Of a stretch of 64,000 nucleotides of DNA, positions 2,426 through 20,806 are shown piece after piece. Numbering within the stretch: position 1 is the first letter of the stretch; every line of letters starts with the position of its first letter. The DNA comes from Desulfobulbaceae bacterium (GTDB lineage Bacteria > Desulfobacterota > Desulfobulbia > Desulfobulbales > Desulfocapsaceae), in contig JAGXHG010000008.1 in the NCBI GenBank assembly GCA_024636345.1, positions 62,001 to 126,000 of the forward strand, read 5' to 3'. The notes under the pieces are model-generated. The model was not told where the DNA came from and searched no databases. It saw nothing but the letters and a program-made list of their open reading frames with translations. The position numbers were made by a program, and so were the translations under genes.

Positions 2426-3619
2426 ATGAGTAATATACAAAAAACCTATGAAGAGATTAACGCCAGGATCAGATCTGGTGAGGCAGTGGTTGTGACCGCC
2501 GAAGAGATGGTGGACATCGTCCGGGCCAAGGGACCTGAACAGGCCGCCCGCGAGGTCGATGTAGTGACCACTGGCACCTTCTCTCCCATGTGTTCATCCG
2601 GCGCCTTTTTTAATTTCGGCCAGATGACCCCCACCATCAAGGCCTCTAAGGTGTGGCTGAACAAGGTTCCGGCCTATGCCGGCCTGGCGGCTGTCGATGC
2701 CTATATCGGTGCGACGGAACCGGCAGAAGATGACCCACTGAACAAGATTTATCCCGGTGAATTCCGCTATGGCGGCGGTCACGTGATTGAGGATCTGGTG
2801 GCCGGGAGAAAGGTCTTTCTTGAGGCCAAGGCCTATGGGACGGACTGTTACCTGGCCCGCAAGATGCAAAAAGAAGTGACCTTGGCTGATCTGCCCTATG
2901 CCTTATTGTGTAATCCGAGAAACGGTTACCAGAATTATAACTGCGCGGTCAATCTCTCTGACAAGACCGTCCATACCTATATGGGCATGCTCAAACCCCA
3001 TTGCCGCAATGCCAACTTCTGCAGCGCCGGGGAACTAAGCCCTCTGCTCAATGACCCCCATTACCAGACCATAGGTATGGGAACCCGGATCTTCCTTGGC
3101 GGCGGGATCGGCTATGTCACCTGGCACGGCAGCCAGCACAATCCCAATGTCCCGCGCACCGAAGGCGGAGTGCCCCGCAAGCCGGCCGGCACGATCATGG
3201 TCCAGGGCGACCTGAAACAGATGTCCGCCAAATGGCTGCGCGGGGTCTCGATCCTTGGCTATGGTAGCACCATGGCCGTTGGCATTGGTGTGCCCATCCC
3301 TATACTGAACAGTAAGATGGCAGCCTATACGGGGGTTTCTGATGCGGAAATCTTTACTCAGGTTGTTGACTATGGTTATGATTACTCCAATGGTATCGCC
3401 CGTAACTATGGTGAAGTCAGTTACGCCCAGCTTAAATCAGGCTCCATTGAGGTAAACGGTAAACAAGTGCCCACTGCCCCGCTGTCCAGTATGGTCAAGG
3501 CCAGAGAAATCGCCGAGACATTGAAGGGATGGATCAGAGATCGTAAGTTTCTGCTCAACCAGCCGGCCCAGTTATTGCCTGACGCGGATATAATTGGTGG
3601 TGAGGGATCTGAAAAATAA
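2426..3619 (+). CDS. Homocysteine biosynthesis protein, HcyBio (DUF39) family
   Basis: This is a COG1900/DUF39-type protein of 397 residues. The family is known from methanogens and sulfate reducers and is implicated in making homocysteine from aspartate semialdehyde with a reduced sulfur donor. Recognisable stretches include VVTTGTFSPMCSSGAFFNFG near the N-terminus, with the conserved cysteine, then GGGHVIEDLV and GTRIFLGGGIGYVTWHGSQHNP. There is no fused CBS or ferredoxin domain. Its end overlaps larE by about 26 bp, so the two are probably co-translated, which supports a shared role in sulfur insertion. The family call is firm; the exact chemistry is from literature knowledge of relatives. 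Confidence 0.88.
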   Translation: MSNIQKTYEEINARIRSGEAVVVTAEEMVDIVRAKGPEQAAREVDVVTTGTFSPMCSSGAFFNFGQMTPTIKASKVWLNKVPAYAGLAAVDAYIGATEPAEDDPLNKIYPGEFRYGGGHVIEDLVAGRKVFLEAKAYGTDCYLARKMQKEVTLADLPYALLCNPRNGYQNYNCAVNLSDKTVHTYMGMLKPHCRNANFCSAGELSPLLNDPHYQTIGMGTRIFLGGGIGYVTWHGSQHNPNVPRTEGGVPRKPAGTIMVQGDLKQMSAKWLRGVSILGYGSTMAVGIGVPIPILNSKMAAYTGVSDAEIFTQVVDYGYDYSNGIARNYGEVSYAQLKSGSIEVNGKQVPTAPLSSMVKAREIAETLKGWIRDRKFLLNQPAQLLPDADIIGGEGSEK

Positions 3620-8981: not shown

Positions 8982-9112
8982 AAAACCCCGGACAAGACAT
9001 CACTCACCGTCCCGATATTGACACCTGAGCTGCACAGAAGTAAGATAAACGCTTTCATCAGTCTATTTTTACTGCTACTATCCCCACTTTTTTCATGTCA
9101 GGGAGAAAAAAT

Positions 9113-9703
9113 ATGGAATCATTTGACGTATTACTTGAAATATCAACCAAGATTCATGGCCATATCTGCGCTGGTCAGGTGATCGGGGTGCGGATGTCCA
9201 TGATCGGCCTTGAGGCCATTGGCATTCAGGACCCCAAGGGATTAGATCGGAAAAAGCTCTACGTCCTGGTTGAAATTGACCGATGCGCCACTGATGCAAT
9301 CCAGTCAGTAACCGGATGCAGCCTGGGAAAACGTTCCATGCGCTGGATTGATTATGGAATAATGGCTGCCACCTTTGTCAATCTTGACACAGGCAAGGCA
9401 GTTCGGATAGTTGCCCGTGAAGAGTCCAGGGAACTTTCTAAAAAATATTGCCCGGAAATCGAGAACAAATACGCGCGGCAGCTGGATGCCTATCGGGTCA
9501 TGCCCCAGGAAGAACTTTTTACCGTAGAAGAGGTGACAGTTATTATTCCTGAGCAGGATATGCCGGGGCGTCCTCTGAAACGAATCCAATGCGAATCCTG
9601 CGGGGACTGGGTCCAGGATTGCCGCGACGTAGAACAGAATGGCAAACTACTGTGCCGGGGCTGCGCCCATGGCAAATATTATACTAAAAAGAGTGTGAAG
9701 TAA
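9113..9703 (+). CDS. FmdE-family protein with C-terminal zinc ribbon
   Basis: This resembles formylmethanofuran dehydrogenase subunit E, which in bacteria often occurs without the rest of the complex. Features are HGHICAGQVIGVRMS near the N-terminus, with the metal-binding His and Cys, then EIDRCATDAIQSVTGCSLGKR, both typical of FmdE. A C-terminal zinc ribbon follows with IQCESCGDW and LCRGCAHG. I prefer the ATG at 9113 to the one at 9095 because CAGGGAG lies between them at the right distance. Its substrate in this organism is not known. Location after the cobalamin operon hints at metal or molybdenum/tungsten cofactor metabolism, which is inference. Confidence 0.8.
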   Translation: MESFDVLLEISTKIHGHICAGQVIGVRMSMIGLEAIGIQDPKGLDRKKLYVLVEIDRCATDAIQSVTGCSLGKRSMRWIDYGIMAATFVNLDTGKAVRIVAREESRELSKKYCPEIENKYARQLDAYRVMPQEELFTVEEVTVIIPEQDMPGRPLKRIQCESCGDWVQDCRDVEQNGKLLCRGCAHGKYYTKKSVK

Positions 9704-9764
9704 GTGGTAGATAAACACTTTATCCACAACTTACTACTCACAATAAACTACACACCACTCCATC

Positions 9765-11381
9765 ATGATAACACTCCTTGACTATGGCGCCGGCAATGTC
9801 CGCAGTGTCAGAAACGCAATTACCCGACTGGGCTATACTGTTCGTGATGTGCAGAGTCCACAGGATATCCTGACTGCCGAAAAACTGATCTTTCCAGGCG
9901 TCGGCAGTTTCGGTTCAGTGATGCAGCGTCTGCATCGTGATGGATTGGTGGAACCCCTTATTGAACGGATCCGTCTCAACAAGCCCTTCCTTGGCATCTG
10001 CGTCGCCCTGCAGGCTCTGTTTGATGGCAGCGAAGAATCACCGGGTGTGGCTGGCCTGTCAATCCTGCCCGGCCAGATCAAACGGTTCACTAGTCAATAC
10101 TCGGCAAACGGTCAAGCCGCCCCTCTGTCTGTGCCCCAGATTGGCTGGAATGGAATTATCCGTCATAAAGAATCCCCCATACTCAAAGACTATCATGGGG
10201 AGAAACTCTATTTTGTCCACTCCTACCGGGCATCAATCGCTGATGTGGGACCGGACTGGCTGCTTAGTACTACCGATTATGGCGAATCTTTTGTCAGTGG
10301 TGTTGAGAAGGGCAACGTCACCGCCTTTCAATTCCATCCCGAGAAAAGCGGCGAGGCCGGACTTAATATCCTGAAGAATTATCTTGATTCTCAAGGAAGT
10401 GAAACAATTACTGTACGGCAGCCGCTGTCAGTTCAGAATAAAAAAACACATATCGCCAAAAGGATCATTGCCTGCCTCGACGTGCGCACCAACGACCTGG
10501 GTGACCTGGTGGTTACCAAAGGTGATCAGTACGATGTGCGTAGTGAAGGTGAGGTCCGCAACCTGGGTAAACCGGTTGAGCTTGCCCGCCGCTACTACGA
10601 AGAGGGTGCCGATGAGATCACCTTTCTCAACATCACCGGCTTTCGGGACTTCCCCATGCAGGATCAACCCATGCTTGAGGTGCTGCAGCGTACCTCGGAA
10701 AATGTCTTTGTCCCTCTGACCATCGGCGGCGGCATCCGTGAGTTTACCGATTCAGACGGCAGGCATTATACCGCGCTCGAAGTGGCCGCTGAATATTTTC
10801 GTTCCGGAGCTGACAAGATCTCTATTGGCAGTGATGCGGTTTATGCGGTGGAGGAATTTCTGCAAACAGGCAAAAAAAGCGGTAAAAGTGCCATTGAGCA
10901 GATCTCTTTTGTTTATGGCGCCCAGGCCGTGGTAATCTCCGTTGATCCACGACGGGTCTACGTCCAGGCCCCTGAAGATACCAGCCACAACACTATTAAA
11001 ACCACAACCCCCGGGCCGCAGGGTGAGAACTACTGCTGGTATCAGTGCACCGTCAAAGGCGGCCGGGAAGGACGCGACATCGACGCGGTACAGTTGGCCA
11101 CTACCTGTGAGCTGTTGGGCGCAGGAGAAATACTCCTTAATTGCATAGACAAGGATGGGACCAATAGCGGTTTTGATCATGAACTGATCAGGCAGGTGCG
11201 AGGTGCGGTATCTATCCCCGTGATCGCCTCATCGGGTGCAGGATCGGCCCAGCATTTTGTCGATGTCTTTAAGGAAACCGATGTGGAGGCGGCACTAGCG
11301 GCCGGAATCTTCCATCGTCAGGAAGTCCCGGTCAGTGAGGTCAAAGAGGCCATGAGAATGAATGGGATTGAGACCAGATAG
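9765..11381 (+). CDS. hisHF: Imidazole glycerol phosphate synthase, fused HisH-HisF (HIS7-like)
   Basis: A single 538-residue polypeptide makes IGP and AICAR in histidine synthesis. The N-terminal glutaminase has Cys79 (FLGICVALQ) and His191/Glu193 (FQFHPEKSG). The cyclase starts near residue 225 (AKRIIACLDVRTND). It contains the long insertions typical of eukaryotic HIS7, for example GDQYDVRSEGEVRNLGKPVELA and VDPRRVYVQ through [16 protein letters not shown]. Bacteria usually encode HisH and HisF separately. The 3' portion from base 11032 is repeated with divergence at 15361-15710, and an integrase gene follows directly. I infer that the present 3' end was supplied by the island and the gene is still intact. 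Confidence 0.92.
   Translation: MITLLDYGAGNVRSVRNAITRLGYTVRDVQSPQDILTAEKLIFPGVGSFGSVMQRLHRDGLVEPLIERIRLNKPFLGICVALQALFDGSEESPGVAGLSILPGQIKRFTSQYSANGQAAPLSVPQIGWNGIIRHKESPILKDYHGEKLYFVHSYRASIADVGPDWLLSTTDYGESFVSGVEKGNVTAFQFHPEKSGEAGLNILKNYLDSQGSETITVRQPLSVQNKKTHIAKRIIACLDVRTNDLGDLVVTKGDQYDVRSEGEVRNLGKPVELARRYYEEGADEITFLNITGFRDFPMQDQPMLEVLQRTSENVFVPLTIGGGIREFTDSDGRHYTALEVAAEYFRSGADKISIGSDAVYAVEEFLQTGKKSGKSAIEQISFVYGAQAVVISVDPRRVYVQAPEDTSHNTIKTTTPGPQGENYCWYQCTVKGGREGRDIDAVQLATTCELLGAGEILLNCIDKDGTNSGFDHELIRQVRGAVSIPVIASSGAGSAQHFVDVFKETDVEAALAAGIFHRQEVPVSEVKEAMRMNGIETR
11032..11056 (+). repeat. Left copy of 25-bp direct repeat (candidate attL core)
   Basis: The block reading ACTGCTGGTATC and on through CACCGTCAA is identical to 15361-15385. 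It is the point at which similarity between the intact gene and the downstream remnant begins. Beyond it the two copies differ mostly at third codon positions. Confidence 0.6.
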
Positions 11382-11517
11382 AAGGGTGTCAAGACGTCCT
11401 CAAGAATGATTACATAAGTTTAAGGTTTCATTAAACGCTCATTTCGTCAAATCCATTATCTGCCCTACCGGTAAGACGAAGGAAAATTATTACAATACAA
11501 GCATCACCGGCTTCATC

Positions 11518-12585
11518 TTGGAAACAAGAGCCACAGGAGGTAAAACCTACGCGCTCCGCTACAAAGATTCACATGGTCGTCAATGCCAACACAAGATAGG
11601 TGATTCAAAATCAATCAGCTTTGACAAGGCCAGAAATGCTGCTCAGGTTATCCGTTCCCGAGTAGTTTTGGGAGAAGATCCCGCTGCGGAAAAGCGAACT
11701 CTTCGTATGGTGCCAACACTTGAAGAATTCGCCCGTGATCGCTACATGCCATTCGTAAAGGGATACAAGCGGAGTTGGGCCAAAGATGATAGTTCACTGA
11801 GGAGCCATATCCTGCCACAGTTCGGTAAATGCCACCTTGATAAAATAAATCAACAGGCCATAATCGAGTTCCACCATGGTATGTTAGCCAATGACTATGC
11901 AATGGGATACGCCAATCTCATGTTGGTGCTTCTTAAATACATGTTCAATCTTGCTCTGAAGTGGGAGATCCCAGGTGTCAAATCGAACCCAGCTGCTGAG
12001 GTTAAGCTCTTTGAGGCCAATAATGCCAGGGAAAGATACCTTACAGCTGAGGAGACACAGCGTTTGTGTGTTACCATAGAAAAGAGTCAAAATACTCAGC
12101 TGAAATTCATTGTTCCACTATTGCTATTATTGGGATGCAGGAAACATGAGCTACTCGATAGCCGTTGGACTGACTTTGACCTGGAGCGCAGAAGCTGGCG
12201 TATCCCATTGGCCAAATCAGGCAAAAGCCGTCATGTTCCATTGTCTAAAGCAGCCATCGAGATATTTACTCAACTTCCTCGTTGGGAAGGCTGTACATAC
12301 ATTATCCCTAACTTACACACACTCAGGCCTTTTGTGAATATTCATCGGGCTTGGAACAATGCCAGAATAGCTGCGGGGCTGCCCGAGGTTCGGATGCACG
12401 ATCTTCGGCATAGTATGGCCTCTAACATGGTCAACTCCGGACGTGCTATATATGAGGTGGCAAATGTGCTGGGACACAGCCAGCTGAAGACGACTCAAAG
12501 ATATGTTCATTTATCCCAGGAAACTCTTTTAGCGGCAGTAGACGCAGCAGCCGATGCCACAGGCAAGAACTGGGGACAAGTATAG
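11518..12585 (+). CDS. int: Tyrosine recombinase / phage-type integrase (5' end irregular)
   Basis: This is an integrase of the P4/DUF4102-like class with a SAM-like core-binding domain (RDRYMPFVKGYKRSW) and a catalytic domain. The catalytic Arg is in LLGCRKHELLDSRW, the HxxR box in MHDLRHSMAS, and the second His and Tyr in LGHSQLKTTQRYVHLS. The only conventional start in this frame is a TTG at 11518. The frame is open back to 11410, and the upstream codons read KFKVSLNAHFVKS and on to ITGFILETRATGG, exactly like the arm-binding N-terminus of this family. An ATG at 11406 would join this frame if one base were removed. The gene may be frameshifted or use an unusual start. It lies directly downstream of hisHF, as expected for an element targeting that gene. 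Confidence 0.85.
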   Translation: METRATGGKTYALRYKDSHGRQCQHKIGDSKSISFDKARNAAQVIRSRVVLGEDPAAEKRTLRMVPTLEEFARDRYMPFVKGYKRSWAKDDSSLRSHILPQFGKCHLDKINQQAIIEFHHGMLANDYAMGYANLMLVLLKYMFNLALKWEIPGVKSNPAAEVKLFEANNARERYLTAEETQRLCVTIEKSQNTQLKFIVPLLLLLGCRKHELLDSRWTDFDLERRSWRIPLAKSGKSRHVPLSKAAIEIFTQLPRWEGCTYIIPNLHTLRPFVNIHRAWNNARIAAGLPEVRMHDLRHSMASNMVNSGRAIYEVANVLGHSQLKTTQRYVHLSQETLLAAVDAAADATGKNWGQV

Positions 12586-12864
12586 ACAGCAAATTGTAGT
12601 TATTCAGACTTGATCTGACATTACTTGGGAGAAAGTTCCGAGCTAATTTGACACCTTGTTTATTTGATAATCAGGAAAGAAGCTAAAGTTGCAGTTCTTC
12701 TCAAACGCTTAACCTTGCCCCTGGATCTTTTTTAATTCTATCTGTAAAATTTCTGTTAAAAATATCTCATCTGTGATTGACTAAATTAACATTCGTTTTT
12801 ATGACGATTAGGGGAATTAAAAACAACCTAATGTTGAACAAACAACAAAAAAAGGAGGACCCAA
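12586..12864. promoter_or_regulatory. AT-rich leader with candidate sigma-70 promoter for the RiPP cassette
   Basis: No gene is seen in these 279 bases. A TTGACT at 12777-12782 lies 17 bases from TATGAC at 12800-12805, a plausible but imperfect -35/-10 pair about 60 bases before the precursor start. Base composition drops sharply here compared with the integrase. Confidence 0.35.
12851..12858 (+). promoter_or_regulatory. Very strong ribosome binding site of the RiPP precursor
   Basis: AAAGGAGG lies 6 bases ahead of the ATG at 12865. It is a near-perfect Shine-Dalgarno match, suggesting high expression of the small peptide, and it fixes the start. Confidence 0.8.
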
Positions 12865-13170
12865 ATGCCAAAGACGCTAGATAAAGAAAAATTTTCTAAA
12901 TTTTATGACGAAATTGCAATGGTTGCCACAAATGCAAAGGGAGCACCTGGCAGTATTGCTGAACTCTTAAAAAAGTACAAAATTACACCAACAGTGCCAA
13001 AACATATACTTGAAAGGATTCAACCAATTCTTGATACCCCTTCTCACAAATTGCCTGGTTTGGACAAAAATGAGTGTGCAGCATGTGCAGTATGTGCCGT
13101 ATGTACGCTTTGTGGTGAATTAAACGGGATGTCAGGAGTAGTTGGTGTCGCTGGAGTTGCTGGAATCTAA
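12865..13170 (+). CDS. Putative RiPP precursor peptide with Cys-ladder core
   Basis: The protein has 101 residues and no recognised relative. Residues 1 to about 65 look like a charged helical leader (DKEKFSKFYDEIAMV, IAELLKKYKI). The C-terminal part is very different. It has five cysteines at 71, 74, 77, 80 and 83, each spaced CxxC (CAACAVCAVCTLC). A small-residue tail GELNGMSGVVGVAGVAGI follows, with glycine at every third position. There is no signal peptide or membrane segment. A radical SAM/SPASM gene with a leader-binding domain follows 127 bases downstream, after a long hairpin. I infer a precursor whose cysteines are cross-linked to the backbone. An alternative, a small Fe-S or metal-binding protein, is less likely given the partner gene. 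Confidence 0.75.
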   Translation: MPKTLDKEKFSKFYDEIAMVATNAKGAPGSIAELLKKYKITPTVPKHILERIQPILDTPSHKLPGLDKNECAACAVCAVCTLCGELNGMSGVVGVAGVAGI

Positions 13171-13191
13171 CTTAAAACAGCCTGGAAATAA

Positions 13192-13239
13192 GTTAGGAAG
13201 CAAGACCTACTTTATTAAAAGTAGGTCTTGCCTCCTAAC
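13192..13239. terminator. Long hairpin between precursor and maturase (attenuator or mRNA stabiliser)
   Basis: Two 22-base arms, 13192-13213 and 13218-13239, pair with a single mismatch and a 4-base loop. No T-run follows, so it may partly terminate or protect the upstream mRNA from decay. Either would give more precursor than enzyme. Confidence 0.7.
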
Positions 13240-13297
13240 AAGATAGATATCTTGTAATCTTTATTTCTATAATTATTTAGAATAAAAAAGAAATTTT

Positions 13298-14650
13298 ATG
13301 CATTTGCCAAGAGATAAATATATCGGGCTTGCTAAAGGTGTAAAGTTACATATTTCTCCTAGTTATGGAAAAATTAAATGTGATTTAACAAAATTAAATG
13401 AGCGTGTATCCAAAACAACTATTGATTTTCTTACTCGATTTGACGGAACGAAAACTTTTAATCAAATCGTTAGTGATTACATTTTAAACACTAAATATAG
13501 TGATGATGAAATCTATAAAAATATAGCCTGGTTAGCAAATATGATTAGGCAAGAGGTTGTAATACTAAGTGATTGCCCGCGAAAATCTAAGCTTTGCATT
13601 ATCGGTAATGAAACAACATATTATCCCTCACATTTACAAGTAGAACTGACAACAGCATGCAATTTAAGGTGTAGTTACTGTTACCGTGACGCTGAACCCA
13701 AGAAACAAGTTAACATTTTGGATACGCGTGAGTTACTTGAAATTTTAAATGAACTTCATAAAAATGGGTTAGAATCTGTCGAACTAACTGGCGGAGAACC
13801 TTTATTACACCCTGATTTTATTAAAATTGTAGAATTTTGTAATGAAAAATTTGTTAAAATTGGACTCTTGACGAATGGGACATTAATAAACGACCTAATA
13901 TTGAAAAAACTACTACCATACAAAAACAAAATGCCTATTGGCATTAGTCTTGACCACTTCAATCCATCAGTACATGATTCCCGACGCAAATTAAAGGGAG
14001 CGTTCCAAAAAACTACTAATGCAATCCGTTTATTAGCTAAACATGGATTCATTATTCGAGTTAGCATGGTAGTAGATCAGGAAACGTGGCCCGATATAGA
14101 AAAAACTCTTTTATTCGCTAAAGAACTTGGTGCTACTTTATTTGGATATTCACCTGTAATTCCTTTAGGTAGAGGTAAAGATAACTTTGATTTATGGAAA
14201 ATAGATGCCAAGGAAATAATTGAACAGGAAAAAGCTTTACAAGAAAAATATTTTGGCTTTATTGATATATTAAAAGAGGACTCTTTGTTCACAATTAGCA
14301 TGCCTGGAGGGTGCGGCGCAGGTTATCGTGTATATACGATGGACCCAAAAGGACACATTCGTCCATGTGTATCCTTTAATGACAAAACAGCTATTTATGG
14401 ATCTCTTGCAAACGAGCCCCCAGAAAAAATATTTTCAAATCCTCTAGCTGAGCTTTTTCATAAAGCACAACCACCAACACCGGAAATTTGTAATCCATGT
14501 AAATGGACTAATTTTTGTAAAAATTGTACCCTGAGGGGCTGGATAGCTTCTAAATGGGTGAAACAAGGTAAATGCGAATGGCTAAATATTCCTGAAATCA
14601 CCGAATGGAATAATATTATTAATAAAAATTCTCATTTAAATAATCATTAA
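13298..14650 (+). CDS. Radical SAM/SPASM peptide maturase with N-terminal PqqD-like domain
   Basis: This is a 450-residue enzyme likely to modify the upstream peptide. Residues about 1-95 look like a PqqD-type RiPP recognition element (SPSYGKIKCDL, ERVSKTTIDFLTRFDG, IVSDYI). The radical SAM core carries CNLRCSYC with cysteines at 121, 125 and 128, followed by LTGGEPLLHPDF. The C-terminus is a SPASM domain with auxiliary-cluster cysteines: GGCGAGYR, GHIRPCVSF, and EICNPCKWTNFCKNC followed by KCEW. This order matches sactipeptide/ranthipeptide-type maturases. Codon use is AT-rich and unlike its neighbours, indicating transfer. No transporter or protease gene is seen nearby; the cassette ends in IS debris and may be incomplete. 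Confidence 0.88.
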   Translation: MHLPRDKYIGLAKGVKLHISPSYGKIKCDLTKLNERVSKTTIDFLTRFDGTKTFNQIVSDYILNTKYSDDEIYKNIAWLANMIRQEVVILSDCPRKSKLCIIGNETTYYPSHLQVELTTACNLRCSYCYRDAEPKKQVNILDTRELLEILNELHKNGLESVELTGGEPLLHPDFIKIVEFCNEKFVKIGLLTNGTLINDLILKKLLPYKNKMPIGISLDHFNPSVHDSRRKLKGAFQKTTNAIRLLAKHGFIIRVSMVVDQETWPDIEKTLLFAKELGATLFGYSPVIPLGRGKDNFDLWKIDAKEIIEQEKALQEKYFGFIDILKEDSLFTISMPGGCGAGYRVYTMDPKGHIRPCVSFNDKTAIYGSLANEPPEKIFSNPLAELFHKAQPPTPEICNPCKWTNFCKNCTLRGWIASKWVKQGKCEWLNIPEITEWNNIINKNSHLNNH

Positions 14651-14689
14651 ATTATAACAATAACAATGATTACATCATAATAATTAATT

Positions 14690-14930
14690 TTGAATGTGGC
14701 CTGGATCGGCTGTAGACAGTCCAGATATTGCGTGATCGACTTGCGAGCTTTGTTGACTGAGTCATAGGCATGCAAATAGACTTGCTCGTATTTTACCGAT
14801 TTCCATAACCGTTCGACAGAAACATTATCCCGCCAAGCTCCGCGTCCGTCCATACAGAGCTTGCAACCCTAATCCTGTACCGCTTTCACGAACTCTTCAG
14901 CGGTAAACTGTGTGCCCTGATCGGTTTTAG
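14690..14930 (-). pseudogene. IS3-family transposase (OrfB) 3' remnant
   Basis: Reading the minus strand gives KTDQGTQFTAEEFVKAVQD, then an in-frame TAG at 14869-14871, then GCKLCMDGRGAWRDNVSVERLW and SVKYEQVYLHAYDS. This is the C-terminal part of an IS3-group DDE transposase. The last motif (RSRPHS, normally RRPHxxL) appears only after a frameshift near 14715. The 5' half is absent. It is a dead fragment at the end of the RiPP cassette. Confidence 0.8.
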
Positions 14931-15360
14931 ATAAAAATATAAGTCTCTTCAGACAAATCTGTGGATTACTTCCGGCACGTGCATGTGATTGCGGACGTTA
15001 AGATTGCCACATCGAATATCTGATATTATTCAACTACCCTCAGATTAACATTACTACTGTATATACGAATGTCAGATCAAGTGTGGCGGTTTTCGCCCTA
15101 GCTGTCAGATTCGATCTAAGCTTCTGCAAGTAAATCCATAAAATCACTCCCCCGCCACCCGGCCAGTGGTGAACATTTGTTGGGTTGGGTGGTGGGTGAG
15201 CAAAATCGAATCGGTTGATTTAGGCAAAGAACTTTCGTTTTGATAACGGGTCCAATGCATACCTGGAGCGGTTGGGTAGTGGTTGGGTGAGAAGAAAAAA
15301 AAGGCATAAAATCACCGTAACACCTTGAAAATAATCAAGTTCACACTTATATTTTCAAGA
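14931..15360. other. Non-coding island end with a short imperfect direct repeat
   Basis: I see no gene in these 430 bases. A G/T-rich motif of about 22 bases (GTTGGGT...GGTGGGTGAG) occurs near 15179-15200 and again near 15270-15291. The word ATAAAATCAC occurs at 15138 and 15306. These may be integrase arm-type sites or mobile-element debris. Confidence 0.35.
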
Positions 15361-15385
15361 ACTGCTGGTATCAGTGCACCGTCAA
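15361..15385 (+). repeat. Right copy of 25-bp direct repeat (candidate attR core)
   Basis: It is identical to 11032-11056. The bases to the left (TTCAAGA) are unrelated to hisHF, so similarity begins abruptly here. Confidence 0.6.
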
Positions 15386-15710
15386 GGGCGGCCGTGAAGG
15401 ACGTGACATCGACGCCCTGCAACTGGCCAAGACCTGCAAACTGCTGGGCGCAGGTCCCATCCTTCTCAACTGTATTGACAAGGATGGGACCAACAGCGGT
15501 TTTGATCATGAATTGATCAGGCAGGTGCGAGGTGCGGTGACCATACCCGTAATCGCCTCATCGGGTGCAGGCTCGGCCCAGCATTTTGTCGATGTCTTCC
15601 AGGAAACCGATGTGGAGGCGGCACTAGCGGCCGGTATCTTCCATCGCCAGGAAGTCCCGGTCAGTGAGGTCAAAGAGGCCATGCGCAGGAATGGGATTGA
15701 GACCAGATAG
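15361..15710 (+). pseudogene. Stranded 3' end of hisHF (cyclase C-terminus only)
   Basis: About 115 codons match the end of the intact his[17 protein letters not shown] through [15 protein letters not shown] to MRRNGIETR and the stop. Differences are mainly synonymous, with a few substitutions such as ATTCELL versus AKTCKLL. Similarity stops just after the stop codon in both copies. The first three-quarters of the gene is missing and there is no start, so this is a remnant. I infer it is the host's original gene end, displaced by island integration. Confidence 0.85.
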
Positions 15711-15790
15711 AAAGAATCAAAAGGGATTGAGCAACAAGGAAGGGGTATGAACGCATCCTGTCCCCTTTTCCAAAAGGAAATCGCCTATCG

Positions 15791-16654
15791 TCAACACTGG
15801 TCGTCTTGTTTTTTACTGGCGGTAACCCGATTACGACCTTGATCCTTGGCTTGATACAAAGCCAAGTCTGCCCGTTCCAAAACCTTTTGAGCGTTATCCC
15901 AGCCATCGGAAAACTGATATTCGGAAACCCCGATACTGACGGTGAGATGGATGGCTGGCTGTTTCTTTCGGGGATCCGCAGCTACCATTATCGTTTCCTC
16001 AATCTGTTTGCGTAACCGCTCAGCCAGTTCAAACGCATTCTCGATTCTGGTATTGGGCAGGACCACCAGAATCTCTTCCCCGCCATAGCGGATCACGACA
16101 TCCACCTCCCGCACAGATCCCATAATCAAATGACTGAGTTTCTTCAAGACCATATCTCCAGTCTGATGGCCATACGTGTCATTCACGATTTTAAAATGAT
16201 CAATATCAAGAAGAAATACAGAAAATGGTTGTTCAAATCTCATAGCCCGTTGAAACTCTTCAACGATTCGGCGAGCGAGATAACGACGATTAAACAGACC
16301 TGTTAACGGGTCGGTAATATTTTCCTGTTCAAGGACATAAATTCGCTGCAGATCAAGGGCTGTTTTCAAGGAGAGAGAGCAGACCAGAAAGACAAAAACA
16401 GCTCCGCTAAAAAATATACAGGGAACGACAAGAGTGGAAATAGAATTGAAGCTATCGGGTTCGCGAATAAAGGCATAGAGGATATAACCCAAAATAAATA
16501 TGCAGATAAGGGTACACAGAAGTTTCCATCGGTTCCGGACATTTCCTGCCGGCAACTTCTGGATAATGACCATGACTGGGACAAGGGACTTAAGCAGAAG
16601 GAATACTCCTGCCACTGTCAGCCCGATTGTCATCATAAAAAGATTATTCTGCAT
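15791..16654 (-). CDS. Membrane-bound diguanylate cyclase (GGDEF)
   Basis: It makes the second messenger c-di-GMP. The first about 100 residues contain three predicted membrane helices (MMTIGLTVAGVFLLLKSL, LLCTLICIFILGYILYAF, LVVPCIFFSGAVFVFLVC). The GGDEF domain follows, beginning DPLTGLFNRRYL. The active loop is GGEEI at residues 191-195, an accepted variant. A product-inhibition I-site, RxxD (REVD), sits at 182-185, five residues before it. There is no recognisable sensory domain beyond the membrane region. It is a stand-alone gene just beyond the island end. Confidence 0.92.
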   Translation of the reverse strand: MQNNLFMMTIGLTVAGVFLLLKSLVPVMVIIQKLPAGNVRNRWKLLCTLICIFILGYILYAFIREPDSFNSISTLVVPCIFFSGAVFVFLVCSLSLKTALDLQRIYVLEQENITDPLTGLFNRRYLARRIVEEFQRAMRFEQPFSVFLLDIDHFKIVNDTYGHQTGDMVLKKLSHLIMGSVREVDVVIRYGGEEILVVLPNTRIENAFELAERLRKQIEETIMVAADPRKKQPAIHLTVSIGVSEYQFSDGWDNAQKVLERADLALYQAKDQGRNRVTASKKQDDQC

Positions 16655-16796
16655 CCGCCCGTTTATACTTTTTAAAAATTAACATAGTCACCCTCTTTCC
16701 ATTTCCGGATCGTCTTATTTATTACAATATGATTATTAAAATAAGTCTTACCAAGCTTAAATCCACCTGAAAATTGTCTCTCTTCGCATTGCATGG

Positions 16797-19418
16797 TTAC
16801 AACAGTGTCTTCTGCACCACTTCATACACCCCAGCCGACAAACCAGACTGACCTACGATTCTCTCCATCTGTTCCCGCATCATTTTTTGTCTGCATATAT
16901 CATAGCGTTTCCAGCTTGTAAAGGGGGCCATCAACCTTGAGGACATATGCGGGTTAAAGGGATCAATATTGATGATCTGCTCGGCCAGAAAAGCATAACC
17001 GTCTCCAGAAGCTGCGTGAAACCGCACATGATTGCCAGTACCAAAGGCGCCAATCAGGGCCCGTACCTTATTGGGATTATGAAGGGAAAATCCAGGGTGG
17101 GTCAGCAGGGTCTTTACGGTGTCCAGAGCATCCTCAAGACTTGAGGTGGCCTGCAGGGTAAGCCACTTATCAACCACCAGAGGCTCATCCTTCCACTGCT
17201 GATAGAAATCCGCCAGGGCCTCCTGCCGCTGTTTCACCGGACAATGGGCCAGGGCACTCAGGGCAGCCATCACATCGGTCATATTAGCCTTCTGCTTATA
17301 ATGATTCACCGCCAGGTCCAGATACTCTGCAGGCAATGGATCCATGGACAGCAGGAAAGAAAGACATATGTTTTTCAGGCTCCTGCGTCCCATAGCCTCA
17401 GGAGTCAAGACATAGGCTCCTAGCTCCCTGTTCTCCTCATAGACCTGAAGAAATTCCTGGCTAAGCTGCCGGGCCAGTTCACTTCTGACAAATTTCCGGG
17501 CCAGATGGAGATTTTCCGGATCGACAATATCCATCTGCAACGCCAGGGTGGTTTCTGCTGGCAGGGTCAGGGCCTGGGCCAGCAGCGCCTTATCACAGCC
17601 CTGTTGCTGCAGATTCAGGCGTACGGCCTTGACAAATAAAGGATCAAGGACAGGAGCACCACCCTGCTGCAAGGCGCTAACGCATTCCAGAATAATGGAT
17701 TCACTGAGTCGGTTGGCGGCATCCCAGCGGTTGAACAAGTCGCTGTCGTGAGCCATGAGGAATGCCAGTTCTTCCCGTCCTTGAAATGGCTCTACCTTGA
17801 CCGGGGCCGAAAAACCGCGCAGGAAAGAAAGTACCGGCTTTTCTACAAGGCCCGTAAAGGTGAAAGACTGCTTTCCCTCCCTCAAATGCAGCTGGGTGTC
17901 ATCCGCAATCATTTCATCACCCCGGCCATCCAGGAGACCAATATTAATTGGGAGATAAAAAGGTTGCTTCTCCTGCTGCCCTGGCGTCGGTACACAGTTC
18001 TGTTTAACAGTTATGATGTATATCCCCTGTTTTTCATCCCAGGAATCAGAGACATGCAGAACCGGAGTTCCGGCCTGGCTGTACCAGTACTTAAACTGTT
18101 CCAGGTCAGCCCCGGACGCATCACCCATGGACGCCACAAAATCATCACAGGTCACGGCCTGACCATCGTGTCTGGCAAAATAGAGATCCATGCCCTGGCG
18201 GAACCTTTTGGCGCCAAGCAGGGTATGCATCATACGGATCACCTCCGCCCCTTTATTATACACCGTAACCGTGTAAAAATTATTGATTTCCACATAAGAA
18301 TCAGGACGAACAGGATGAGCCATAGGTCCGCTGTCCTCCTTGAACTGAAAGGTGCGCAATACCCGCACATCATCGATACGCTGCACGGGCCGCGAGTTCA
18401 TGTCTCCGGAGAACTCCTGATCCCTGAACACGGTGAGTCCCTCTTTCAGGCTGAGCTGAAACCAATCACGGCAGGTGACCCGGTTGCCGGTCCAGTTATG
18501 GAAATACTCATGGGCAATGACGCCTTCCACGCCCAGATAATCCTGATCCGTCGCTGTTTCCTGACTGGCCAGGACATATTTGGAGTTAAAGATATTCAGC
18601 CCCTTGTTTTCCATGGCTCCCATATTAAAATCATCCACGGCCACGATCATATAGCGGTCCAAGTCATACTCAAGGCCAAAGACCTCCTCGTCCCAGCGCA
18701 TGGATTTTTTCAGGGATTGCATGGCGTGATCACATTTGCCGTGATTCCGAGCCTCAACATAAATCTGCAGTAGTACAGCCCTGCCCGAGCTGGTGACAAA
18801 TCTATCCTCAAGACAGACCAAGTTTCCTGCCACCAAAGCAAAGAGATAGCAAGGTTTAGGAAAAGGATCCTGCCACACCGCATAATGCCTGCCGGCTTGC
18901 AGATTGCCCTTCTCAAACAGATTGCCATTGGAGAGCAGAACCGGACAGGTTTTGATGTCCGCCTCGATCCGGGTGGTGAAACGGGCCATCACATCGGGCC
19001 GATCCTGGTAATAGGTAATCTTACGAAACCCCTCCGCCTCGCACTGGGTACAGTAGTTGCCGCTGGAGCGGTACAACCCTTCGAGTGCGGTATTGCGATC
19101 CGGAAATATCCTGGTGGCAATCTCTAGGACAAAGGTGTCCGGGACTTTATGGATCAGGATCCCGGAATCAGTCAATGAATACTCAAGAACTGTAAGCGGT
19201 CTGGAATCGAGGCTGATGGCCACAAGCTCCAGATCCTGACCATTGAGAAACAGGGATTTGTCCCCGGATGGCTGATCAGGGTTACGCTTGAAAAAAGAGC
19301 GAGCCGTGACCAGGGTATCATCCTGGTTAAGTTGAAAGGTCAGGGTAATCTCATCGATGAGATATTTAGGTGCACTATAATCCTGCCGATAAAAAGTCGG
19401 CGGTGTCTGCTTGTTCAT
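16797..19418 (-). CDS. pepN: Aminopeptidase N (M1 metallopeptidase)
   Basis: This is an 873-residue zinc aminopeptidase that removes N-terminal residues from peptides in the cytoplasm. The substrate-binding GAMEN motif is at 267-271. The zinc site HEYFH is at 303-307, with the third ligand Glu at 326 (SLKEGLTV). N-terminal beta domain, catalytic domain, DUF3458-like beta sandwich and a helical C-terminus are present in the expected lengths, as in E. coli PepN. It is divergent from dapL, with about 160 bases between the starts. Confidence 0.95.
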
Positions 19419-19582
19419 CGTATCCTCATTTTTTTATCCTGCGCCAATCATCAGGCATCCAAGCCTTGGCGGTTGACAGCTATTTTCCATTCCATTATAT
19501 TCAATGCTTCAATCAAGGGGCATTCTGCAAGTTTAGCCCTTCATTCTCGTCTACCATAACAAATTTAAGGGAAAATGTCACC

Positions 19583-20806
19583 ATGATCACTATCAACGAA
19601 AATTACCTCAAGCTCCAGGCCTCATATCTTTTTTCAAATATCGCTAAACGAGTAGCAAGTTTTCAACAGGCCAACCCTGAAAAAGATATTATCAGACTGG
19701 GCATCGGTGATGTAACCAGGGCTCTGCCGACGGCCTGTATTACGGCCTTCCACAAGGCCGTAGATGAGATGGGAACCGACGCAAGTTTTCGTGGCTATGG
19801 CCCGGAACAGGGATACGACTTCCTGCGTGAGGCCATCGCCAAAAATGACTTCCAGGCACGGGGTGCCGAAATAACAGCTGATGAGATTTTTATCAGCGAC
19901 GGTGCCAAGTGCGATACCGGCAATATCCAGGAACTCTTCACCCAGGATATCAAAGTGGCCATTCCCGATCCTGTCTATCCGGTCTATCTGGATACCAATG
20001 TCATGGCAGGTCGCACCGGTGACTTTATAGAAGGCAGGTATCAGGGTCTGGTCTATCTTGACTCCACAAAGGCCAATAATTTTGTACCTGCCCTGCCTTC
20101 TGCAGACGTAGACCTGATCTATCTCTGCTTTCCCAATAATCCCACTGGATCGACCATTACCAAAAAGGAGTTAAGCAACTGGATAAAGTACGCACAGGAG
20201 AAAAAAGCCTTGATCCTTTTTGATGCCGCCTATGAGGCCTTTATCCGCGACGAATCCCTACCCCACTCCATCTATGAGATCGAAGGGGCAAAAGAGGTGG
20301 CTATTGAATTTCGCTCCTTTTCCAAGAGCGCTGGATTCACCGGCACCCGCTGCGCCTACACCGTAGTACCCAAGGAATGTACGGCCTTTGATTCCAGAGG
20401 AAACCGGCAATCGGTCCATTCCCTGTGGAACCGCCGCCACTGTACCAAATTCAACGGCGTTTCCTATCCGGTACAACGTGCAGCCGAGGCCGTCTATAGC
20501 AAAGAGGGACAGGTCCAAACCAAAGAGCTGGTTGCCTATTACATGCGCAATGCCGATCTGATCCGGCAGGAGATGACAAGCCTTGGCTATGACTTTGTGG
20601 GAGGTGAGAACGCACCCTACATCTGGATTGATGCCAAAGGCGACTCTTGGGATTTTTTTGATATGCTGTTGAATAAAACCGGCGTGGTCTGCACCCCTGG
20701 TGCCGGATTTGGCAAATGCGGCGAAGGCTATATTCGCCTCTCCGCCTTTAACTCCTTAGCCAATGTGGAGAAGGCTATGACCCGTATCCGGGAAACGCTC
20801 AAATAA
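19583..20806 (+). CDS. dapL: LL-diaminopimelate aminotransferase
   Basis: The enzyme converts tetrahydrodipicolinate directly to LL-DAP for lysine and peptidoglycan. Family motifs are [13 protein letters not shown] at the N-terminus, [25 protein letters not shown] and the PLP-lysine region [13 protein letters not shown]. The frame is open upstream to 19370, but the ATG at 19583 gives the usual start ([17 protein letters not shown]) and length of about 407 residues. DapL is found in a limited range of bacteria including Desulfobacterota, which fits the suggested host. Confidence 0.95.

Follow-up and report, generated by a model that had tools for sequence, protein, structure and literature searches.

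The locus considered here, in a Desulfobulbaceae bacterium, raises two questions: what product could be made by a small cysteine-rich peptide and the radical SAM enzyme encoded beside it, and how did these two genes come to lie where they do? Both were addressed within a 64,000-nucleotide stretch of one contig (hereafter the window), and by comparison with related loci elsewhere. The pair is best read as a minimal two-gene cassette whose product would be a five-rung sactipeptide of the thurincin H type (nested type I), a reading drawn from sequence comparison to which we assign a probability of about 0.74. The cassette is carried on a 4.3-kb element (11032 to 15360) that encodes a tyrosine integrase and is inserted in hisHF. 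The relevant features are collected in Table 1.

Table 1. Features of the window, with positions counted from its first nucleotide, and loci elsewhere at which a ladder peptide adjoins a related maturase.
Feature	Position	Strand	Remarks
hisHF, 538 aa, attachment gene	9765..11381	+	Part from 11032 on supplied by the element
Left end of element	11032..11056	+	25 bases identical to 15361-15385
Tyrosine recombinase (integrase)	11518..12585	+	TTG start as listed; the 391-aa open frame extends upstream of it
Precursor peptide ORF, 101 aa	12865..13170	+	ORF listing, RBS, ladder common to eight relatives' peptides
Intergenic hairpin, two 22-nt arms, 95% complementary	13192..13239	+	Repeat search; folding z -6.48 against shuffles
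Radical SAM/SPASM maturase, 450 aa, AlbA/SkfB-like, putative RRE-like N-terminal region	13298..14650	+	Pfam, NCBIfam, profile comparison
IS3-family transposase remnant, C-terminal piece	14647..14853	-	rve_3 19.5 bits (below cut-off); IS3 30.4 bits, profile positions 305-349 of 369
Displaced native hisHF 3' end, starting with the right-end 25-base copy	15361..15712	+	Aligns with 11032-11383
Anaerococcus prevotii pAPRE01			5-Cys ladder, 41-aa peptide, AlbA-like maturase adjoining
MT836680.1 (L131), faecal contig filed as Bacteriophage sp.			4-Cys ladder beside maturase
Anaerostipes MAG			4-Cys ladder beside maturase
G695			5-Cys ladder beside maturase; maturase frame with one stop codon
G944 (L292)			4-Cys ladder beside maturase
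G1290 (L291)	2887-3069	-	6-Cys ladder, 60 aa, beside maturase and ABC ATPase gene
G1605			5-Cys ladder beside maturase
G1566			4-Cys ladder, CWSCLACAAC, beside maturase

The precursor frame is preceded by an AGGAGGA box and is laid out in three parts. A leader of about 70 residues is followed by five cysteines at residues 71, 74, 77, 80 and 83, all spaced i+3, and then by an 18-residue Gly/aliphatic tail, GELNGMSGVVGVAGVAGI, in which five of six glycines share one three-residue phase. The first-pass annotation, made from the sequence alone, had described a 101-residue peptide with a strong ribosome-binding site, cysteines separated by two residues, and a tail with glycine at every third position, and this description holds. 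The cysteine ladder is rare in shuffled sequences: when the whole peptide was shuffled 200,000 times, 2 shuffles contained a chain of at least five cysteines at i+3, as did 18 of 200,000 when only residues 69-101 were shuffled. Tail shuffling produced at least five glycines in one phase in 2,392 of 200,000 cases, and the glycine phasing alone is therefore the weaker evidence.

The sole NCBIfam match of the peptide is to the end of cas4 (E 0.12), and CxxCxxC runs resemble ferredoxin motifs. Both observations would suit a non-RiPP function, in which the cysteine run binds a metal or an Fe-S cluster and the radical SAM enzyme has some other role. This is very improbable, given that maturases of this type repeatedly have a ladder peptide with a long hydrophobic tail next to them, and that no such peptide was seen beside the generic radical SAM relatives scanned.

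The radical SAM enzyme, which the first-pass annotation had placed after the peptide, begins after an intergenic distance of 127 nt and matches Pfam Radical_SAM with 103.9 bits. It combines a radical SAM CxxxCxxC motif with C-terminal SPASM/twitch cysteines, the arrangement expected of a sactipeptide maturase encoded beside its precursor, as here. All six ladder-type maturases compared share cysteines 121, 125 and 128, together with 339, 357, 398, 401, 407, 410 and 426. This conservation favours the C-terminal SPASM domain that had been proposed, although the Pfam score (20.4 bits) is slightly below the cut-off of 21.5. The proposed N-terminal PqqD-like domain has only indirect support. No Pfam PqqD match was obtained in this protein even at E 10; comparison of its N-terminus with the N-termini of five relatives (hhalign) gave a probability of 93 (E 2.8e-7), and four of those five pass the Pfam PqqD cut-off. 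An AlphaFold model built from two rows is too poor to inform the RRE question (mean pLDDT 43.9).

AlbA, of the subtilosin A system, is the top NCBIfam match of the maturase (NF012164, residues 37-430), but its 196.1 bits fall so far below the equivalog cut-off of 850 that the enzyme is AlbA-like and not AlbA. Among enzymes of solved structure, the sactisynthase SkfB is the nearest in sequence (5.3e-25; 7.7e-31 when a profile of three rows was used). The ranthipeptide maturase PapB (NF047865) is also matched, with 90 bits (1.6e-25) against an equivalog cut-off of 340, and the sequence is silent on the bonded carbon. The same precursor and enzyme could thus yield a ranthipeptide, in which the thioethers run to the beta- or gamma-carbon of each acceptor residue. 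We consider this outcome improbable: AlbA is by far the better match, SkfB is the closest solved enzyme, the ladder fits a nested sactipeptide topology, and the five glycines that would serve as acceptors in one register (i+5) have no beta-carbon. A viperin-like defence function (PADLOC pVip, 2.3e-22) was rejected, as the match covers only the radical SAM core (residues 115-265) and the maturase has SPASM-type cysteines.

In nested type I sactipeptides, the strand that bears the cysteines is matched with an acceptor strand on its C-terminal side (PMC8172795, PMC12093266). The precursor has the parts of such a hairpin, namely five cysteines at i+3 and an 18-residue tail in which the i+5 and i+6 registers each give five partners. 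In the i+6 register, the pairs would be C83-M89, C80-V92, C77-V95, C74-V98 and C71-I101, using the last residue of the peptide. In the i+5 register, the acceptors would be G88, G91, G94, G97 and G100, and neither register places Ser, Thr or Asn on the acceptor arm. The 'stacked ladder' imagined in the first-pass annotation corresponds to the nested hairpin of thurincin H, which has four rungs there. The core, which that annotation did not recognise, is of the thurincin H type. The cysteine run of thurincin H is also spaced i+3, its innermost pair is bonded at i+6, and its acceptors are polar, whereas those predicted in the window are glycine or aliphatic. Among the other ladder peptides, the i+5 positions read S/S/S/N in those of MT836680.1 and Anaerostipes and A/V/A/V/F in that of pAPRE01, while the i+7 positions of G1566 read A/N/Q/N. 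No single register was found to suit all the ladder peptides compared.

By the mechanism proposed here, the leader would be bound by the maturase, probably via its RRE-like N-terminal region. SAM would be cleaved at the CNLRCSYC cluster, and the resulting 5'-deoxyadenosyl radical would take hydrogen from residues of the tail. Each cysteine sulfur would then bond to the alpha-carbon of one acceptor, in either the i+6 (Met/Val/Val/Val/Ile) or the i+5 (five Gly) register. The cysteine strand (71-83) and the acceptor strand would fold as a hairpin, with the spacing of three on both strands giving parallel rungs. In ThnB, the RRE is required for bond formation and dispensable for SAM cleavage (PMC8172795). 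Each thioether bond costs 2 Da (PMC13239113, in its accessible sections), so five bonds would amount to a loss of 10 Da. By analogy, the mature product would most likely be antibacterial.

Comparison with characterised systems shows which traits of the cassette are shared and which are not. Thurincin H and its maturase ThnB, from Bacillus thuringiensis, share with the window the placement of cysteines in the N-terminal half of the core, a C-terminal acceptor arm, the nested hairpin (predicted here) and a single radical SAM-SPASM enzyme, with an RRE that is putative here (PMC8172795). However, the thn cluster includes a protease, a three-part ABC transporter and a regulator (PMC8172795), none of which is found in the cassette. 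The hosts also differ, and thurincin H has four rungs and a 40-aa precursor, as against five predicted rungs and 101 aa with a leader of about 70 residues in the window. Of two further thurincin-H-type traits, a short leader is lacking here and no export gene was seen among the ORFs of 9000-20000; we take both traits to be variable and not defining. Gnavucin D, from Mediterraneibacter gnavus, is similarly thurincin-H-like and encoded in a cluster without a peptidase gene, and its four cross-links were inferred from a shift of -8 Da. Unlike the window, it has a 9-residue leader, five structural genes and a transporter (PMC13239113, as far as its accessible sections go).

Ladder peptides beside such maturases are not confined to the window. 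At eight other loci, a CxxC-ladder peptide with 4, 5 or 6 cysteines adjoins a distant relative of the maturase (Table 1), and such distant relatives are mostly from Bacillota. Five of these loci (G695, G944, G1290, G1605 and G1566) were drawn from the phylum, class or order of the Anaerostipes MAG. The maturase frame is open in seven of the eight, G695 being the exception. First cysteines lie at residue 12 to 18 in the relatives' ladder peptides, compared with residue 71 in the window, and the CWSCLACAAC motif of G1566 is one that we take to resemble thurincin H. The five-Cys ladder peptide and AlbA-like maturase of pAPRE01 lie side by side as in the window, but there the peptide is much shorter and ABC genes are present. 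This ladder peptide is filed as hypothetical; a 2011 survey that discusses the cluster of this plasmid proposes, in the passages available, Apre_1838 and Apre_1839 as its candidate structural genes (PMC3132745). In a further locus, G1204 (L289 1303-1932), a pAPRE01-like peptide has one ladder cysteine replaced by Phe and the maturase is broken by stops; damage to both genes fits joint decay.

The maturase in the window is 24-37% identical to those of its relatives. The highest-ranking are the 4-Cys ladder type of G944 (32% over 468 aligned columns, 221 bits) and the 6-Cys ladder type of G1290 (37% over 356 aligned columns, 206 bits). Next in BLAST rank, a subtilosin-type enzyme (L299, 151 bits) is level with the ladder-type enzyme L131 (150 bits). 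The best tree, built from 15 hand-picked rows with ThnB absent, places the nine ladder maturases together with a branch support of only 51/72, and pairs the window maturase with that of G1290 (support 85/87).

Genome searches indicate how closely ladder and maturase are associated. A profile of six ladder maturases gave 14 matches at E 1e-45 or better in 350 genomes, and ladders were sought within about 1.5 kb either side of each genome match, among ORFs of up to 140-160 aa. All four matches at E 1e-100 or better had a 4- or 5-Cys ladder peptide (G523 and G695 had been found earlier, and recur across three overlapping genome samples that include the 398- and 350-genome searches). A chain of at least four cysteines was found beside none of the other ten, the strongest of which (1.7e-80) adjoins a subtilosin-like peptide. 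In another search, of 398 genomes at 1e-25, 75 matched and 2 of the 30 loci scanned had a ladder (G523 and G695), while two further long maturases adjoin subtilosin-like peptides. The subtilosin-like peptides beside L223, L227 and L299 have a CxxC and at most one later cysteine, and no ladder was seen beside subtilosin-type or generic radical SAM relatives among the loci scanned. As the relatives were gathered via the maturase, these counts show that ladders accompany such maturases, and not how frequent ladders are without one. Homology searches and genome neighbourhoods had been suggested in the first-pass annotation as a check on its call of a radical-SAM RiPP cassette, and the pairing of ladders with related maturases bears that call out.

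Closer to the host, relatives are scarce. The precursor matched in 2 of 144 related genomes, its own and G060, and the latter match (E 0.0066) was rejected as chance, for it overlaps an opposite-strand ORF resembling an ammonium transporter (named by eye). At E 1e-40, the maturase was found in 1 of 144 related genomes and 1 of 395 genomes of the phylum, both times its own genome, where precursor and maturase are each present as a single copy and the remaining radical SAM matches are weak. A protein search of plasmids and phages with the precursor gave no match. Among viral contigs, several searches produced no confirmed relative. Three others found weak radical SAM matches, two in each of the first two and one in the third, and a further search returned 80 loci, of which the strongest did not exceed E 4e-14. 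A pattern of five cysteines and three glycines also matched viral contigs, where several among the matches listed are tandem repeats (these pattern loci, L011-L130, were excluded from the ladder scan). Scans of genome contigs yielded L219 and a weak match, L220, the first scan being without a confirmed match. Cysteine chains set aside as chance occurrences comprise one in the host genome (L008), out of frame within a 341-aa ORF; one in a 24-aa ORF that merely repeats a single unit and has no tail (L138); and three-Cys ORFs on the opposite strand of L307, L308 and others. A peptide beside a radical SAM gene on a small Vagococcus plasmid (L133 3734-5171) was likewise rejected as a ladder. It has 59 residues in two near-identical halves with one cysteine each, and is possibly a different kind of RiPP.

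Among the ORFs of 9000-20000, no gene was seen that would export the product, cleave the leader or confer immunity, and the element does not include the large peptidase-like ORF at 16797-19418. In the relatives, ABC transporter genes are found next to the maturase (L131, L132, L222 and L291) or after a subtilase (L292). Furthermore, the IS3 remnant abuts the stop codon of the maturase. It may mark lost export genes, which makes the activity of the cassette uncertain. What survives could be the stranded part of a former ladder sactipeptide cluster whose export and immunity genes were lost by an IS3-linked deletion and which no longer yields an active product, and the damaged locus G1204 provides a second decayed cluster. 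We judge this unlikely, if still a history of some weight, because both genes are open, the ribosome-binding site is strong, the ladder is unbroken and all the cluster cysteines are present. Moreover, Gnavucin D is cell-associated and its cluster has no peptidase gene (PMC13239113, in the part available), so the absence of such genes here is no proof of decay. Such genes may have been lost here or may be supplied by the host, or the peptide may act inside the cell.

The hairpin between precursor and maturase is far more stable than its shuffled versions, has Rfam matches that all fall below gathering scores, and is followed by a T-run on the minus strand only. Our guess is that it serves for partial termination or for processing of the transcript, so that more precursor than maturase is made.

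The second question, that of origin, can be answered from the flanks. The first-pass annotation had noted that the region is far more AT-rich than its surroundings and concluded that it was acquired. The cassette has a GC content of 34.1%, compared with 48.6% for the whole window (z -4.2), and no sliding window outside it, of 623 in all, is as AT-rich. Acquisition can now be specified as insertion of an integrative element in hisHF. Positions 11032-11383 and 15361-15712 form a gapless 352-nt alignment, with 88% identity over the first 300 nt, and crossover presumably took place within the 25-base repeat. The left end of the element carries a 3' end with which the reading frame of hisHF (538 aa) is whole again. 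In a relative, G016, nothing interrupts hisHF and the gene after it, which from a GGDEF-like sequence (judged by eye) encodes a diguanylate cyclase. The integrase, the repeated ends, the restored target gene and this uninterrupted site together characterise a genomic island. Target-restoring genomic islands similarly have a tyrosine integrase, a rebuilt gene and a displaced fragment at the far end, but they target a tRNA gene (PMC4383910), whereas the element in the window has entered a protein-coding gene, hisHF, in its 3' part. ARAGORN detected no tRNA in the window. The integrase gene has a GC content of 47.0%, and its distance from the 34.1% of the cassette suggests that the cassette is probably of different origin. 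The integrase, the duplicated hisF end, the IS3 remnant and the intergenic hairpin are all additions to the first-pass annotation.

Extra or decayed hisF 3' ends are present in four of the seven other genomes of the genus that were read (G005, G007, G008 and G011), with none in the regions read of G003, G013 and G016. Related integrases (71-75% identity) lie near a hisF fragment in G123 and G132, from other families of the order, and G003 has a related integrase (58%) on another contig. Together, the extra hisF ends and the related integrases near hisF fragments make hisHF look like a recurrent integration site. A literature search on hisF and integration listed no report of hisF in this role.

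Cargo differs among the hisHF-site elements, as seen when the window (9765-15712) is set beside L275-L281 and L283-L286. In G132 (L283 2120-6432), an 861-aa protein in which DUF5906 and VapE-like domains were matched is encoded ahead of the related integrase. Such proteins are found in phage satellites, and some hisHF elements may be satellites. Relatives within the genus have ORFs with CxxCH motifs (L276). In addition, the genomes listed for the phylum of the Anaerostipes MAG showed no overlap with those of the window's own phylum, and the two observations together point to a host outside Bacillota.

The topology class of the proposed product is already known, with four rungs. What might be new is a five-thioether ladder with all-Gly (or all-aliphatic) acceptors, as one member of an expandable series of 4, 5 and 6 rungs made by a single maturase lineage that crosses phyla on small mobile elements, with a two-gene cargo that works without its own exporter, perhaps inside the carrier cell. 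Taken as a whole, this wider proposal is rather doubtful. We know of no characterised sactipeptide with all-Gly or all-aliphatic acceptors. A literature search recognised no five- or six-rung ladder sactipeptide in the texts it reached, often in part, with subscription journals mostly outside its coverage. If the proposal is true, related enzymes provide natural ladder sizes of 4, 5 and 6 rungs, and natural substrates can be used to test how such an enzyme sets the number and the register of the bonds it makes. An acceptor arm of glycine or of aliphatic residues only would broaden the known acceptor range, and the 70-residue leader raises the question of what such a sactisynthase reads. The locus is, in addition, a case of a two-gene RiPP cassette carried on a 4.3-kb element in hisHF, in a host whose phylum seemingly differs from that of the sampled relatives.

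Signs of mobility are also present around some of the related clusters. On MT836680.1, a MobA/VirD2-type relaxase (Pfam) lies upstream of the ladder precursor, maturase and ABC exporter, and the record is more likely to be a mobilizable element from some gut bacterium than a phage. The cluster of G944 (L292 4753-12534), with its subtilase and ABC genes, has a serine recombinase a few kb away, and may therefore be mobile too.
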